Source: Qipengyuania sp. JC766
GTDB lineage: Bacteria; Pseudomonadota; Alphaproteobacteria; Sphingomonadales; Sphingomonadaceae
NCBI RefSeq assembly: GCF_040717445.1
Contig: NZ_JBFEFL010000001.1
Coordinates: 930,001-994,000, forward strand
DNA length: 64,000 nucleotides
Direction of reading: 5' to 3'
The translations under genes were made by a program, and so were the position numbers. Each line of letters starts with the position of its first letter. Position 1 is the stretch's first letter. Positions 25,338 to 32,416 of the stretch are shown here, piece after piece. The notes beneath the pieces were generated by a model, which worked only from the letters and a program-made list of their open reading frames with translations, searched no databases and was not told the DNA's origin.

Positions 25338-26540
25338 TCAGCGCAGGCTCACCACATTGTCGCTCGCGGGGCGTTCGCGGTCGCCGCGATAAAGGCTGGC
25401 CATCGGTTCGTCGTCGACGATCACCTGCTCCGCGTCGCCGAAGCCGTTGAAGCCCGTCTTCATGGCGGCGCCGTAGGCACCCAGCATTCCGATCTCGATA
25501 TAGTCGCCGGCCTGGATATCGCCCGGAAGCGGGAACGGGCCGCGCATGTAGTCGGCATCGTCGCAGGTCGGACCGTAGAAGGCGAATTCCTCCTCCGGAT
25601 CGCGCAGGTCGTCTTCCAGCGCGCGCAGGGGGAAACGCCAGCCCACATGAGCAGCATCGTAGAGCGCGCCGTAGGCACCGTCGTTGATGTAGAGTTCGTC
25701 ACCCCGGCGCTTCTCGACCCGCACGATGAGCGAGGAATACTCCGCGCACAGCGCGCGGCCCGGTTCGCACCACAGTTCCGCGTTGTAGGCGATCGGCAGC
25801 GCGTAGAAATGCTGGTGGATGATCTGGAAGTAATCTTCCAGCGGCGGGGGTTCCATGCCCGGATAGATGCTCGGAAAACCGCCGCCCACATCGATCATGT
25901 CGATCACGACGCTGGCCTCGGCAATGGCCGCGCGCACGCGGTCGAGCGCCTGCACGTAGGCGAACGGGCTCATCGCCTGGCTGCCTACGTGGAACGCGAT
26001 GCCGAGCCAGTCGCAATGCTGGCGCGCCATCTGCAGCAGCGCGGTCGCATCGCCCAAATCGCACCCGAACTTGGAAGCGAGCGAGAGTTCGGCATATTCG
26101 CTGGAGACGCGCAGGCGCAGCAGCAGCCGCAGGTCCGTCGCAGCTTCGCCCGCATCGCTGCGGCATGCTTCCACGATCTTTTCCAGCTCTTCGGCCGTGT
26201 CGAAGACGAACGTCTTCACCCCGTGCTGGAAATAGGCCTCGCGCACGGCCCGCGCCGTCTTGACCGGGTGCATGAAGCACAGGTCCGCCTCGGGCAGAGT
26301 CGCGCGCGCCAGGCGGACTTCGGCGATGGAGGCGACGTCGTATTTGACGATCCCGTTATCCCACAGGATCCGCAGCAGGTCCGGCGAAGGGTTCGCCTTG
26401 ACCGCGTAGAGCGGCTTGCCCGGAAACTTCTCGACGAAGAATCGGGCGGCGCGCGCGGCGGCGTGGGGACGGTTCAGGATGACCGGCTCGTCCGGCGTCA
26501 GCGCGCGAGCTACGGACCAGGCGTCGGGATAAGTGTGCAA
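25338..26540 (-). CDS. Fold-III PLP ornithine/lysine decarboxylase
   Basis: This 400-residue alanine-racemase-fold decarboxylase has the PLP lysine in LYAVKANPSPDLL, HVGSQ, the phosphate-binding GGGFPSIYPG, CEPGRALCAEYS and the active-site Cys-Asp in YGPTCDDADYM. This is the eukaryotic-type ornithine decarboxylase family. It makes putrescine (or cadaverine; specificity is unclear) for the carboxyspermidine pathway encoded further right. The start is TTG at 26540: GGGGG lies 9 bases upstream and no ATG is available in this region. A 9-codon upstream ORF ends one base before the TTG, and a structured leader precedes it. Confidence 0.9.
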   Translation of the reverse strand: MHTYPDAWSVARALTPDEPVILNRPHAAARAARFFVEKFPGKPLYAVKANPSPDLLRILWDNGIVKYDVASIAEVRLARATLPEADLCFMHPVKTARAVREAYFQHGVKTFVFDTAEELEKIVEACRSDAGEAATDLRLLLRLRVSSEYAELSLASKFGCDLGDATALLQMARQHCDWLGIAFHVGSQAMSPFAYVQALDRVRAAIAEASVVIDMIDVGGGFPSIYPGMEPPPLEDYFQIIHQHFYALPIAYNAELWCEPGRALCAEYSSLIVRVEKRRGDELYINDGAYGALYDAAHVGWRFPLRALEDDLRDPEEEFAFYGPTCDDADYMRGPFPLPGDIQAGDYIEIGMLGAYGAAMKTGFNGFGDAEQVIVDDEPMASLYRGDRERPASDNVVSLR

Positions 26541-26670
26541 TTCAAGGGACCCCCTGGGCGTCGTTAAACATACCCGCTGCCTTGCGTTGAGAGTCCCCCG
26601 AGAAAACGGGGAGGACAGCGGGAGCGCGCATATAAAACGCTGCGGATGAACCGCAAGCGAAAATGCGCGC
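26541..26670 (-). promoter_or_regulatory. Structured 5' leader of the ornithine decarboxylase gene (possible speF-type RNA)
   Basis: On the minus strand two nested hairpins fill this leader. The first pairs 26663-26670 with 26624-26631 (8 bp, GCGCGCAT) and encloses CGC/GCG and TGCGG-TTCAT-CCGCA stems. The second pairs 26616-26622 with 26573-26579 (CCCGCTG/CAGCGGG) and encloses CCCCG/CGGGG (26607-26611 with 26596-26600). The inner C-rich arm could also pair with the G-rich ribosome site near 26550. An alphaproteobacterial leader RNA called speF is known upstream of such decarboxylases; I cannot confirm membership without the covariance model. Confidence 0.55.
26542..26571 (-). other. Candidate 9-codon upstream ORF in the decarboxylase leader
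   Basis: ATG at 26571 opens MFNDAQGVP and stops with TGA at 26544-26542, one base before the TTG start of the decarboxylase, in a different frame. The purine-rich stretch that would serve the decarboxylase lies inside it. The arm CAGCGGG of a leader hairpin ends two bases before the ATG. A leader peptide or translational coupling is possible, but nine codons can arise by chance. Confidence 0.35.
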
Positions 26671-26716
26671 TTCCTTCAATACGAAACAGCCTGCGGAAAG
26701 GTCCGGCGGCCCGTCG

Positions 26717-27289
26717 TCAGAACTGCACCTGCGGGCGCTGGTCGACCACGCCCTTCTCGCTGTCGTCGAGGCGGTGGAAGTCGTAGTGCCGGAAGCCGAG
26801 CAGGCCGGCGAACAGCACCGCGGGGAAATTTTCGATCGCGGTGTTGTAGCGCGACACGGCGGCGTTGAGCGCGCGGCGCGCGGCGGCGAGCTTGTCTTCC
26901 ACGTCGCTCAGCTCGTCCTGCAACTGCAGGAAGTTCACGTTCGCCTTCAGCTCGGGATACGCCTCGGCCAACGCCAGCAACCGGTCGAGCGCGATCTTCA
27001 GCTGCGCCTCGTCTTGGGAGTTCAGCTCACCCTGCGCGGCGGTCGAACGCGCGGAAATCACCGCGTCGAGCGTCTCCTTCTCGTGCGCGGCATAGCCCTT
27101 CACCGTGGCGACGAGGTTGGGAACCAGATCGTGCCGCTGGCGAAGCTGGACATCGATGTCCGCCACGCCCTGGTGGCAGTTCTGCCGCAGTGCCACGAGC
27201 CGGTTGTAGATGACGATCAGCAGGATCGCGAGGCCGACCGCCAGGACGACGAGAGCGGAGGTCCAGAAAGTAGAGAGTATCGGTTCCAC
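26717..27289 (-). CDS. LemA family protein
   Basis: The 190-residue protein has one N-terminal membrane helix (about residues 8-28: ALVVLAVGLAILLIVIYN), then the LemA helical bundle with RQRHDLVPNLVATVKGYAAHE, ENFPAVLFAGLLGFRHYDF and a long antiparallel coiled segment. The function of LemA proteins is unknown. I start at GTG 27289 (VEPILSTFW), which has AAGGGGGAA just upstream, instead of the longer frame to 27442. It is divergent from the DUF3137 gene, a common partner of lemA. Confidence 0.9.
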   Translation of the reverse strand: MEPILSTFWTSALVVLAVGLAILLIVIYNRLVALRQNCHQGVADIDVQLRQRHDLVPNLVATVKGYAAHEKETLDAVISARSTAAQGELNSQDEAQLKIALDRLLALAEAYPELKANVNFLQLQDELSDVEDKLAAARRALNAAVSRYNTAIENFPAVLFAGLLGFRHYDFHRLDDSEKGVVDQRPQVQF

Positions 27290-27370
27290 GTTTTCCCCCT
27301 TCAGCGAAGTGCCGTTAGGACTATCATAGCCGATAATGTTTAAGGAAGCCTGCGGGGGCTTTTGATCGAT

Positions 27371-28495
27371 ATGCTGGAAAGACCGAACGCCGATGCGCTG
27401 ATGCAGGGCCCGCTTGGCGGCTGGCTGCGGCAGCAGACGCATGTGCGCGAAGAAGCGCGCAGCAAGGCGAATTCGCGCCTGTTCATGGTGCTGATCATCG
27501 GCCTGCCGGTGCTGGTCTTCATGGTGCTGCTCGACCCGCTCGGCCTCGACTTCAAGTTCTTCCTCGTGATGGCCGGCACGGGCCTCGGATGGTGGTGGTC
27601 GCAGGCGCCCAAGCGCGAGGCGATCAAGCAGGTGAAGATCGGCATCAACGACGCGATCGCCGACACGCTGGGCCTAGAATACACCATCGAAGTCGACCAG
27701 CTGGACGGTTTCCACACCGCCCGCGCCCACGAGATGTTTCCCGGCTTCACCCGCGCCAGCTTCGAGGACCAGTGGTGCGGCCAGGCGATGGGGCACCGTT
27801 TCTGCCTGCACGACGCGCACCTGGAGGAGCGCCGCGGCTCGGGGAAGAACCGCCGCTGGGTCACGACGTTCCGCGGCGCGGTGATGACCATCGGCTGCAC
27901 ACGCGAGGTTCACGGGGTCACTCTCGTCCAGCGCAGCGGCAAGCATCGCAAGTTCTTCGGCGGGGCGAAGGACACGATCCGGCTGGACGGGCGCGAACTG
28001 GCCTATGTCGACATGGTCCATCCCGGGTTCGAGGACGTGTTCGACATCTATTCGACCGACCAGGTCGAAGCGCGCTATCTCGTCCACCCGGCCTATGTCG
28101 AACGGCTGCTGAAGCTGGAACAGGGCCTGCAGGGGCAGGATATCCGTGCCTTGTTCGTACGCGGGGAACTGATCGTGGTGATGAAGGCGAACAGCCTTTT
28201 CGAAAGCGGATCGATAGAGGCGAGCCAGGACCGCGTCCTGCTCGAACGGACGATCGAGCAGTTCGGTCGTCTCGCCGATCTGGCCGCCTCGCTCAACGAA
28301 TGGGACCGCGCCGCGCGCAAGCGCCACCGCGAAGAGCTGGTCGGGCTGCAGCAGGACCGGCGCGATACGGCGCAATTCGTCGCTGGGGCAACCGCCGCCG
28401 CTGCGGTCGCCGGAGCCATCCCGGCTCGGCCGGGCGGGTTCGGGCGCAAGGGGCTTGGCGGCGACCCGCGATCGGAGACCGACCCGCAGGACTAG
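27371..28495 (+). CDS. DUF3137 domain protein
   Basis: A 374-residue protein with two N-terminal membrane helices (about residues 38-55 and 60-80, LFMVLIIGLPVLVFMVLL then a WWW-containing stretch) and a large cytoplasmic region with the DUF3137 pattern: FHTARAHEMFPGF, RRWVTTFRGAVMTIG and HPGFEDVFDIYSTDQVEARYLV. The function is unknown. Genes of this type often lie beside lemA, as here. Either TTG at 27362 or ATG at 27371 could be the start. The 3' end overlaps the convergent nspC by 4 bases. Confidence 0.85.
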   Translation: MLERPNADALMQGPLGGWLRQQTHVREEARSKANSRLFMVLIIGLPVLVFMVLLDPLGLDFKFFLVMAGTGLGWWWSQAPKREAIKQVKIGINDAIADTLGLEYTIEVDQLDGFHTARAHEMFPGFTRASFEDQWCGQAMGHRFCLHDAHLEERRGSGKNRRWVTTFRGAVMTIGCTREVHGVTLVQRSGKHRKFFGGAKDTIRLDGRELAYVDMVHPGFEDVFDIYSTDQVEARYLVHPAYVERLLKLEQGLQGQDIRALFVRGELIVVMKANSLFESGSIEASQDRVLLERTIEQFGRLADLAASLNEWDRAARKRHREELVGLQQDRRDTAQFVAGATAAAAVAGAIPARPGGFGRKGLGGDPRSETDPQD

Positions 28496-29667
28496 CCGAG
28501 CCGGTTGCGGAAATCCTCGTATTCGAAGGCTTTTACCTGCTCCAGCGCATCGGTTTCGCTGTCCCACAGCCAGATGCTCGGCAGGGGAACGCCGTTGAAC
28601 GTGTTGGTCTTCACCATCGAGTAATGCGCCTGGTCGAGGAAGGCGATCCGCTGCCCCGGCTCGCACGGCACCGGCAGGGAATAGTCACCGATGACGTCGC
28701 CCGCGAGGCATGACGGCCCGCCCAGCCGGACCGCCTGCCCTTCCCCCACGCGCTCGCCCAGCATGGCGGGACGATAGGGCGCCTCGATCACGTCGGGCAT
28801 GTGGCAGGTGGCCGAGACGTCGGTGATGGCGAACGGCACTTCGTTGACGCCCGCGTCGAGGATGGTGCCGACGAGGATGCCGGCATCGAGCGCCACCGCC
28901 TCGCCCGGTTCGAGGTAGATTTCCGCCTGCGAGTCTTCCTTCGCATCGCGCAGGAATTCGATGAGCTCCTCGCGCTGGTAATCGGCGCGGGTGATGTGGT
29001 GTCCGCCGCCCATATTGATCCACTTGAGCTGGCCGAACCAGGGCTCGATGGCATCGAACACCTTGTCCCAGGTCTGGCGCAGCGGTTCGAAGTCCTGCTC
29101 GCACAGATTGTGGAAATGGATCCCGTCGAGCCCCGCCATGTGGTCGAATTCGAGCTGGCTGATCGGAAAGCCCAGCCGGCTGCCCGGGCTCGACGGGTCG
29201 TAGCGCGGCACTTCTCCCGTCGGCACCTGCGGGTTGAGCCGCAGGCCGACGTCGAACCCGCCCCCGCTCGCCCGCGCCGCATCGAGGATCAGGGACGCGC
29301 GCTCCATCTGCTGGGGCGAATTGAAGATCACGTGGTCGGACAGGCGGCAGACCTCTTCCAGGTCCTCGGGCTTGTAGGCCGCGCAATAGGTGCTGATCTC
29401 GCCGTCGTAGAACTCGCTCGCCAGCCGCGCTTCCCACAGGCCGGAAGTGCAGACCCCGTCCAGATATTCGCCCAGGATCGACGCGACCGGGAACATGCTG
29501 AAGGCCTTCAGCGCCGAGAGCATCTTGATGTCCGCCGCATCGCGAATGTCGGCCAGGATCTGGCAATTGGCGCGCAGTTTCGCCGCATCGACGACGAAGG
29601 CGGGACTGTCGACGCGGTTGAGGTCGAACTGGGCGAAGGCGCCCGGATCGCCGGCTCTCGTTTCCAT
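28492..29667 (-). CDS. nspC: Carboxynorspermidine/carboxyspermidine decarboxylase
   Basis: The 391-residue fold-III PLP enzyme has the PLP Lys in LSALKAFSMFP, FNSPQQMERA, HFHNLCEQDFEPL, GGGHHITR, EPGEAVALDAGILV and the catalytic Cys in GGPSCLAGDVIGDY. This set distinguishes NspC-type carboxy(nor)spermidine decarboxylases from diaminopimelate decarboxylase. It releases CO2 from carboxyspermidine to give spermidine. It is the third gene of an operon after the dehydrogenase and an S41-type peptidase, 3 bases after the latter. The 3' end overlaps the DUF3137 gene. Confidence 0.93.
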   Translation of the reverse strand: METRAGDPGAFAQFDLNRVDSPAFVVDAAKLRANCQILADIRDAADIKMLSALKAFSMFPVASILGEYLDGVCTSGLWEARLASEFYDGEISTYCAAYKPEDLEEVCRLSDHVIFNSPQQMERASLILDAARASGGGFDVGLRLNPQVPTGEVPRYDPSSPGSRLGFPISQLEFDHMAGLDGIHFHNLCEQDFEPLRQTWDKVFDAIEPWFGQLKWINMGGGHHITRADYQREELIEFLRDAKEDSQAEIYLEPGEAVALDAGILVGTILDAGVNEVPFAITDVSATCHMPDVIEAPYRPAMLGERVGEGQAVRLGGPSCLAGDVIGDYSLPVPCEPGQRIAFLDQAHYSMVKTNTFNGVPLPSIWLWDSETDALEQVKAFEYEDFRNRLG

Positions 29668-29670
29668 GGG

Positions 29671-30966
29671 TCAGCGTGCCTCCAGCAATTCGAGCGCTGC
29701 CGCCAGCGCGGGATCCGAACCGTCCGCGGCCGTGCTGGCGGGTTCGGTGGGAATGTCCGCGACATAGTCCTCGCGTGGCGTACCGTCGGGGTGGAACAGC
29801 GATTCCCCGCCGAAATCGACGCGCGCGCCGCTCAGTTCCAGCTGCGCGTTCCACACGCCGCCGAGCAGGTCGCCCATGTTCGATCCTATGGTGGTGGCGG
29901 CGCTGGCCGCATCCATGCCGATCACGATGCCCTCGCCCATGCTGCCGGTCCAGCGGCCGTGAAGCACGACCACCGGGCCTTTAAAAAGCGGCTCTCGCGG
30001 GAAGACGTATTCGACGAACTGGCGCGGTACCGTGAATTCGCGTTCCAGCACGGGCACGCGGTGCATCTGGTATGGTCGGGGCGCGTCGACGAAGTGGCCT
30101 ATGACCGACCGGCCGACTTCGGTGTTCCCCCCGCTCGGGGTCTCGCGCATGTCGAGCACGACGCCCCGCGCACCGTCGGCAATCGCCTTTTCCAGCGCAG
30201 CGTCGAAGGCGGTTATCGTGTCGTTGTCGCCGAGCGAATTGAGCGGCCGCAGGACGGCGATATCGCCTGCGGCGCCCGCAAAGGACAGTTCGACCAGCTC
30301 CCGGTCGGCCAGGCCATTCGCCCAGTCGCGCGTCGAACCGAGCTGCACCTCGCGAACCGGCGCTTCGGCCGACCTGACCGAGAGCAAGCGGTTCCCCGTG
30401 CGCAGTCCGTTGACCGCCAGGGTCAGTCCGTAATCGAACTGCGCATCCGAGGGGTCCGGAAGGACGGTTCCGAACGGTGCCCGCGCCGCATCGCGTGCCG
30501 GCAAGCCAGCGATGGACACGATCTCGTCGCCCGGTCTCAGGCCTGCATCGAATGCGGGCGATCCGCGCCGCACGTCCACGATGACCGCCCGGCCATCCTC
30601 GAAACAGGCGTCAAGGTCGGCGGACGACATGAGGATCGCATAGTCGTCGTCATCGAACGGCCCGACGAGCAGGTGCGGGTCCATGAATGTCAGCCCGGTG
30701 CGATGCATGATCCGCCGCAGCGCCTTCCGGTCGCCGGCCTCCGCAGCCAGCGCACGGGACCGGCGCAGCTGCGCCTCCACGTCGATATCGTCGCGCTCGA
30801 TATAGGCGTACTCGCTGCGCAGCAGCTGTTCGAACTCGTCCCACGCCGCAACCGCATCGAACTCAGGCGCGTCCGCGGCAGACGTCGCAGGAACCTCCTG
30901 CGCGAGCACCGGCGAAGCAACGGCCGGTAATGCTGCCAAGACGAGGGCCGACAGGACCGTGCGCAT
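29671..30966 (-). CDS. Exported S41-family peptidase-like protein
   Basis: The 431-residue protein starts with a signal peptide (MRTVLSALVLAALPAVASPVLA) and has a PDZ-like segment (RRGSPAFDAGLRPGDEIVSIAG) near residues 125-150. The following domain is like C-terminal processing peptidases/S41: GARGVVLDMRETPSGGNTE, then WTGSMGEGIVIGMD with the candidate nucleophile Ser, and GSNMGDLLGGVW. The usual Lys of the Ser-Lys dyad is not clear. It is sandwiched between the two polyamine genes with gaps of 2 and 3 bases. No polyamine link is known for such peptidases. Confidence 0.83.
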   Translation of the reverse strand: MRTVLSALVLAALPAVASPVLAQEVPATSAADAPEFDAVAAWDEFEQLLRSEYAYIERDDIDVEAQLRRSRALAAEAGDRKALRRIMHRTGLTFMDPHLLVGPFDDDDYAILMSSADLDACFEDGRAVIVDVRRGSPAFDAGLRPGDEIVSIAGLPARDAARAPFGTVLPDPSDAQFDYGLTLAVNGLRTGNRLLSVRSAEAPVREVQLGSTRDWANGLADRELVELSFAGAAGDIAVLRPLNSLGDNDTITAFDAALEKAIADGARGVVLDMRETPSGGNTEVGRSVIGHFVDAPRPYQMHRVPVLEREFTVPRQFVEYVFPREPLFKGPVVVLHGRWTGSMGEGIVIGMDAASAATTIGSNMGDLLGGVWNAQLELSGARVDFGGESLFHPDGTPREDYVADIPTEPASTAADGSDPALAAALELLEAR

Positions 30967-30968
30967 CG

Positions 30969-32180
<1,212 letters not shown>

Positions 32181-32416
32181 GTGCCGTTTGCCTCTTCGTG
32201 TGTGTGGATTTGCGGGTGCCCTAGAGCAATGCGCGCGCCGCGCCAATCGATCCGGTTCCGCTTTCCTACAGCCGCCCCGAATCGCTATGAACCTGTGATG
32301 AGCTGCCCTCCTCCCCTGCCGTCCGCCGCGCCCGTTTGCGCCCATGAAACCCCCGGTTTTTTTGCCCCTGGACAGTGGTCCAGGTGGTCCATGTCTCCGG
32401 TTCCGGACGCTTCGCG

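Follow-up and report, generated by a model that had tools for sequence, protein, structure and literature searches.

The odc1 (uORF-25-1) motif was described by Brewer et al. in 2021 (PMC8632094) as a decarboxylase leader in alphaproteobacteria. In the text that defines the motif, a helix termed P1 has the ribosome-binding site in its right side, a pseudoknot joins the 5′ end to a loop, and conserved bases are located just before the loop strand. The main start codon is UUG and a second UUG, positioned two bases upstream of it, opens an upstream ORF (uORF) that encodes a conserved peptide of 11 amino acids; the text on this uORF reports finding no evidence for variation in its length. The reporter section, in which the S. 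echinoides element was placed in E. coli, states that both starts are used, that of the uORF about threefold more. According to the same section, mutants in the bases just before the pseudoknot strand reduce main-ORF expression, and those termed M4 and M5 do so with little effect on the uORF. Where it discusses odc1, the text names no ligand. The speF RNA also lies upstream of COG0019 decarboxylases [Corbino et al. 2005, PMC1273637], and the metabolites tested in the speF part of that paper did not bind.

Here we discuss a leader of approximately 80 nt on the minus strand of Qipengyuania sp. JC766 DNA, between a LemA-family gene and an ornithine/lysine decarboxylase-type gene. It lies within the 64,000-nucleotide stretch that was analysed as a whole (hereafter the window). 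Judged against the published text description in PMC8632094, not against its alignment or consensus figure, this leader is probably a member of the odc1 motif and would control translation of the decarboxylase. As read from its sequence, it is a new and well-supported member of an already published orphan motif. As far as the text of PMC8632094 shows, selection on the uORF stop and the exceptions in uORF length are additions to the published account.

The decarboxylase leader and its distribution

The gene at 25338–26540 (minus strand) starts with UUG and encodes 400 amino acids with Pfam domains PF02784 and PF00278; among proteins of solved structure, its closest relatives are lysine/ornithine decarboxylases (E 1e-38). 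These features point to a PLP-dependent enzyme of the ornithine/lysine decarboxylase type, with the substrate assigned by likeness. Carboxynorspermidine decarboxylase-like and synthase-like genes are located near it on the same strand (28492–32345, minus). They score below the NCBI cut-offs for those names and are likely to form a spermidine-type polyamine pathway cluster. Since they stand close by on the same strand, a polyamine setting is likely for the decarboxylase as well. The 170-nt leader is more stable than its own dinucleotide shuffles (z −2.93), one of 200 shuffles being as good.

The element resembles odc1 in several respects. It immediately precedes an ornithine decarboxylase-type gene in an alphaproteobacterium, and the two UUG codons are spaced by two nucleotides (UUG-NN-UUG), the first opening a uORF of 11 codons. 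The sequence would allow the 5′ end to form a pseudoknot with the loop, with conserved bases before the loop strand. It would also allow a P1 whose right side contains the ribosome site, although a competing hairpin folds better in the window. The element departs from the published text in the long inner hairpin that separates the pseudoknot strand from the P1 strand, and from most of its relatives in the loop, which reads ACGCAA instead of CCGCAA. Rfam 15 gave no match in the window or in the loci of 18 relatives at the gathering score, and none on 26200–27400 at E ≤ 5. Because odc1 was absent from these Rfam 15 scans, routine annotation will tend to miss it. In the collection of papers searched, the term "odc1 motif" was found in PMC8632094 only; five others that contain both odc1 and riboswitch have titles on other subjects, and no follow-up was apparent among the titles listed by broader searches.

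Relatives of the leader were collected through the enzyme. A search of 59 genomes for the decarboxylase gave a match to it or to a paralogue in 57; the 80 named loci are mostly labelled Erythrobacter and related genera. First-round leaders came from 110 loci, two of which lacked the anchor (L069 and L073), and later loci were the best-scoring model matches together with divergent genomes chosen on purpose. From the resulting 198 loci, 16 were left out: L020, with a one-base start spacing; 13 that were distant or non-orthologous; and L115 and L170, which are from the same genome, had a mis-mapped frame and have an 11-codon uORF by eye. The remaining 182 represent 141 distinct leaders. Three of these lack the loop motif. 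Removing the 13 without a 6/6 helix leaves 128 parsed leaders, in which helix counts are conditional on pairing. Covariation was counted in alignment A2, comprising 38 motif-anchored leaders without long insertions from a set less than 90% alike, plus L115 (39 in all). Since L115 had been added by eye for its compensating change, the count was repeated without it.

A covariance model, R1, was built from 39 relatives with the window left out. In the genome of the window its single match is the window leader (E=2.7e-9). Among 296 sampled genomes of the order, R1 matches 213. G096 (E 0.005) is the one match outside the family of the window, and the non-matches listed include a single family genome, G153, which is also without the decarboxylase. 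At class level, R1 matches 10 of 385 genomes, of which five belong to the family and five match weakly (E 4.6e-4 to 0.008). The five weak matches and that in G096 were treated as chance, because these genomes are without a close decarboxylase relative at E 1e-30. No ribosome-site/double-start pattern was found at 12 decarboxylase loci that represent six further families in the order. Within one bacterial family, nearly all of the genomes sampled have the element. A natural partial deletion occurs in L202 (genome G312), which has lost the 5′ half of the RNA, and in L203 (G159), from the same genus, the 5′ half is altered; both retain the ribosome site and an 11-codon uORF.

The conserved helix, P1 and the ribosome site

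The leaders share a block that opens with GCTGCC. Next come either CCAA or an insertion, then GGG(G)AC and, after a short linker, CCGCAA and GGCAGC; a variable linker leads to GG[AG]GGTCCCTTGA[AG], which is followed by TTG. The strands of the conserved helix (the odc1 pseudoknot helix) are, in the window, CCCGCTGTC (26614–26622, minus strand) on the 5′ side and GGCAGCGGG (26573–26581, minus strand) on the 3′ side, and their pairing is predicted from covariation in relatives. In the 39 motif-anchored leaders, 99.1% of the cells in GCTGCC/GGCAGC pair and three of the six pairs change on both sides. Without L115, two of six do so, in three cells in all, and the covariation score was then reached by 0 of 500 shuffles. 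Moreover, when pairing was not required, 128 of the 138 leaders with the loop motif pair 6/6 at their best placement, versus 26.3 with a permuted strand. At least four leaders (L034, L037, L060 and L102) have five pairs and an A·C at the outer position.

The initial annotation had described two long hairpins with GC-rich inner stems in this leader, and both are present (hairpin 1, with arms of 9 bp, is discussed below). Hairpin 2 has the outer arms CCCGCTG and CAGCGGG (26622–26616 with 26579–26573) and a GC-rich inner stem. When related leaders were compared for covarying pairs, as that annotation had proposed, only the outer stem of hairpin 2 proved to be the conserved helix. Next to the 3′ strand of the helix is the loop motif, ACGCAA in the window (26582–26587, minus strand); it reads CCGCAA in 117 of the 128 parsed leaders and ACGCAA in one. 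Between the 5′ helix strand and the P1 strand, the window carries an insertion (26601–26613, minus strand) that supplies hairpin 2 with the C-rich side of its inner stem. Long insertions are found there in 20 of the 128 leaders.

The 5′ strand of P1, CGGGGGACTCTC (26589–26600, minus strand), can pair with the ribosome site and the first UUG, and 12 bp are possible in the window (26600–26589 with 26554–26543). The ribosome-binding region, GGGGGTCCC (26546–26554, minus strand), also serves as the 3′ strand of P1 and is near-invariant in the alignments. It had been suggested that the C-rich inner arm is the alternative partner of the ribosome site. In the relatives, it is the G-rich GGGAC strand that can pair with the ribosome site and the first UUG, and in the window the inner stem competes with that pairing. 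An uninterrupted P1 run of at least 7 bp is present in 123 of 128 parsed leaders, compared with 6.8% of shuffled segments, and 117 of 128 have a P1-like minimum fold. P1 shows little covariation because it is nearly invariant. The apparent covariation of CAU facing AUG and CAA facing UUG was discarded, as CAU also faces UUG in 38 leaders.

P1 and the conserved helix cross, and together they would therefore form a pseudoknot. The conserved helix appears in the minimum fold of only 11 of the 128 leaders. For the window, the nested minimum is −32.2 kcal/mol, compared with −31.8 when the helix is forced and −26.5 when P1 is forced, all being nested energies in which the pseudoknot is not scored. 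Forcing P1 hence costs 5.7 kcal/mol relative to the nested minimum, because the extra inner hairpin formed by the long insertion uses the P1 strand. The modeled folds make P1 less certain in the window copy than in its relatives. A further pairing, in which the 5′ helix strand would also mask the enzyme start, was dropped, since its count (83 of 128 minimum folds) is near the expectation with a permuted strand (73.4).

The overlapping uORF, its stop and a possible choice of start codon

Two TTG codons separated by two bases share one ribosome site in the window. The second, at 26540, starts the decarboxylase; the first, at 26545–26543, which the initial annotation had missed, opens an ORF of 11 codons that overlaps the enzyme gene. 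This uORF (26510–26545, minus strand) has a UUG start, reads LNCTLIPTPGP by plain translation, ends at TAG (26512–26510) and is out of frame with the enzyme. The short frame described instead was one of 9 codons. It does run from ATG at 26571 to TGA at 26542, ending one base before the TTG at 26540; it is not conserved. An in-frame leader ATG occurs in 24 of 139 leaders and gives 9 codons in 2 of the 139, which rules out the 9-codon ORF as a conserved part. The proposal of a conserved leader that acts in cis on polyamine synthesis and contains a translated ORF is supported, with the ORF of 11 codons in place of that of 9.

Among the 141 distinct leaders, the start pair is UUG/UUG in 137, AUG/AUG in 2, and UUG/AUG and GUG/UUG in 1 each. 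The uORF has 11 codons in 130 leaders, 16 in 8, 22 in 1 and 48 in 2. Its length, then, is not invariant and differs in 11 of 141 leaders, whereas the published text on odc1 (PMC8632094) reports no evidence for length variation. In the leaders with 16 codons (L036, L053, L101, L066, L079, L086, L093 and L094), five extra codons are found near the enzyme start and the GTA-based stop is retained; the insertion in L053 looks like a tandem repeat of YPDAR codons. In L200 and L069 (the latter from Pontixanthobacter aquaemixtae), GTG replaces GTA, the stop is lost and the uORF extends to 48 codons; the helix and the ribosome-site sequence are also changed in these two leaders.

Conservation of the uORF could be a by-product, since it overlaps the enzyme gene. 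The null expectation was consequently obtained by redrawing synonymous enzyme codons from the usage of the gene itself. Under this null, exactly 11 uORF codons are expected in 10.0 leaders, versus the 130 of 141 observed. Presence of the stop depends on the codon at enzyme position 10 (GTA, CTA, TTA, ATA or CTG-A), and the codons used there are mostly uncommon (GTA accounts for 198 of 4105 Val codons and CTA for 97 of 4735 Leu codons). As the leaders are related, changes were also counted on a tree, built from later codons of 138 genes (3 of the 141 were left out for short genes). Across the same 106 taxa, the third base changes 2 times at Val-10 and 27 times at codon 11. When the plain alignment column is used, which includes shifted rows, 112 of 118 have A as the third base of Val-10 and 6 changes are counted, compared with 28 to 65 third-base changes in each of 20 other well-conserved Val columns. 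The stop state itself changes 3 times on the tree and the codon form of the stop 20 times. Both the excess of 11-codon uORFs over the null and the 2 versus 27 changes on the tree indicate selection on synonymous enzyme codons that preserves the uORF stop.

Collectively, the comparison of leaders reveals crossing complementarities, two starts on one ribosome site and a selected uORF stop. A model built on these features would work as follows. As long as P1, or its competitor the inner hairpin in the window copy, is held, initiation would be low. Once the ribosome site is open, ribosomes would split between the futile start of the uORF and that of the enzyme, and the conserved loop and helix would shift the balance between the two starts in response to a signal. 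Given the gene under control, this signal would most likely be a polyamine or its precursor ornithine. We propose tentatively that odc1 may be a start-codon selector, in which the signal-bound pseudoknot shifts ribosomes away from a decoy UUG and onto that of the enzyme, five bases downstream, and in which termination on the decoy frame is a working part; this reading may well prove wrong. An element that turns expression on fits better than simple product repression, because the mutants in the reporter section of PMC8632094 lower main-ORF expression. Counting against the model of translational control as a whole are the fold energies of the window, which disfavour P1, the rarity of the helix in minimum folds, the scant covariation in P1, the lack of the 5′ half in L202 and the variation in uORF length. 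If true, the start-codon selector would be a metabolite switch that acts by choice between overlapping starts, not by simple masking. The odc1 motif is an orphan control RNA on polyamine synthesis, with the uORF stop, on the evolutionary evidence, a selected working part.

The peptide was compared with the codon null as well. In the 130 leaders with 11 codons, it is less varied than the codon null at positions 4, 7, 8, 10 and 11, and weakly so at position 6; positions 5 and 9 are not less varied and position 3 is near the null, kinship being ignored in these comparisons. Since relatedness and codon bias near starts may contribute, this pattern is a hint only of conservation at the peptide level. 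It bears on an alternative model, in which the peptide stalls the ribosome at its own stop when polyamine or ornithine is high, and thereby blocks the enzyme start just upstream, while the RNA fold tunes access. Selection on the stop would agree with such stalling. So would the bias at positions 7 and 11, where Leu/Ile/Pro or Leu/Gly/Pro are favoured although the codon null predicts Arg (z −6.1 and −5.4); no reduction of this kind was seen at positions 5 and 9. However, the null ignores relatedness, which by itself lowers the observed variety, and the peptide is strongly clade-dependent (e.g., LSCTSILTPGL and LSCTSIIARWG). Moreover, uORFs of 16, 22 and 48 codons exist, much of the conservation lies upstream of the uORF, and a choice of low-structure codons near starts could explain part of the bias. 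Stalling is therefore a rather unlikely explanation in our estimation, though one that keeps a real chance.

A second alternative retains the pseudoknot and changes what it binds: a regulatory protein would bind it and set translation, and the RNA would bind no metabolite. In favour of this reading, the motif is small and strongly conserved, and the matches of R1 are convincing in one bacterial family only. There is no candidate protein, however, and the loop-mutant effects given in the reporter section of PMC8632094 arose in E. coli, which must either possess such a protein or not need it. We consider control by a protein unlikely.

The upstream hairpin and known leader elements

Upstream of the conserved block, the window has a putative promoter (26629–26656, minus strand) with TTGCGG (26656–26651), a 16-nt spacer and TATATG (26634–26629), for which the predicted RNA start is near 26622. 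The pattern TT[GT][CA]NN, 15–19 nt and TA[TA]NNN, ending 6–11 nt before the 5′ helix strand, is present in 119 of 128 leaders versus 1.3% of shuffled stretches; a strict promoter scan of the window leader, with the E. coli consensus, found none. Across this promoter extends hairpin 1 (26623–26671, minus strand), an inverted repeat with the arms AGCGCGCAT and ATGCGCGCT (26671–26663 with 26631–26623, 9 bp) and the inner stem TTGCGG..CCGCAG. The initial annotation took it to be part of the leader RNA. However, it overlies the promoter-like stretch, and a −10 element at 26634–26629 would place the RNA start downstream of it, so hairpin 1 is probably not transcribed. One weak terminator-like hairpin lies inside it (26656–26640, minus strand; 0.5 expected by chance).

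Taken alone, hairpin 1 has a z of −6.0 against mononucleotide shuffles; its equivalents in the 128 leaders average −0.72. Inverted repeats of at least 7 bp that end at its place are found in 21 of 128 leaders, which is above chance. Perfect inverted repeats of 8–14 bp across the promoter spacer were seen in L101, L096, L099, L090, L080 and L030, as well as in the window (26671–26623); the arm sequences differ between species, and L096 and L101 are without a TATA box there by eye. In addition, a GGAACTT stretch recurs approximately 55–65 nt upstream of the element, upstream of the promoter, in L048, L080, L105, L161, L099, L101 and L096, and is possibly a second promoter of another type.

Hairpin 1 might have a function, as an operator repeat in the promoter, as a DNA hairpin or as an RNA hairpin made from an upstream start. 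Repeats of at least 9 bp at the same place occur in 10 of 128 leaders versus 0.45 expected, with differing arms, and the class of at least 8 bp changes 8 times on the tree. These repeats at the promoter may mean something; most leaders are without them. Against a function, 107 of 128 leaders lack even a 7-bp repeat there, the −10 element, into which the right arm extends, is also found in leaders without the repeat, and repeats are likewise somewhat in excess 75 nt farther upstream, where 2 of 128 leaders have one of at least 9 bp. A functional hairpin 1 is thus unlikely.

The initial annotation had offered the speF RNA as the identity of the leader. Both are alphaproteobacterial leaders of COG0019 decarboxylases, with the same downstream gene family; they differ in size and fold, as the approximately 75-nt architecture here contrasts with a speF stem with a large insertion that is followed by a long bulged stem-loop, and the speF description in PMC1273637 includes no double-UUG uORF. 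The speF model (RF00518) is without a match in the window and in the 18 relatives' loci at the gathering score, and a covariance-model scan with stricter filters matched 0 of 60 genomes of the order and was likewise empty for the genome of the window. The 14 control genomes of the order scan were also without a match, and a scan of 240 genomes of the class with the stricter filters served as positive control, giving matches in 8, of which 6 were over the cut-off. That the leader is speF, or a divergent copy of it, is accordingly highly improbable.

The element that we assign to odc1 may also be compared with metabolite-sensing RNAs. The SAM-II and preQ1 riboswitches are small pseudoknots that sequester the ribosome site in their second helix, and the window element would likewise be a small pseudoknot with a second helix over the ribosome site. 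To our knowledge, these riboswitches share no sequence with the window leader, which also differs from them in having no Rfam match in the scans above. With regard to the uORF, E. coli speFL is an ornithine-sensing leader peptide encoded by a short ORF ahead of ornithine decarboxylase, and the window uORF is similarly a short ORF ahead of a gene of that type. The speFL frame lies upstream of its target gene, whereas the window uORF runs across the enzyme start and uses the same ribosome site as the enzyme.
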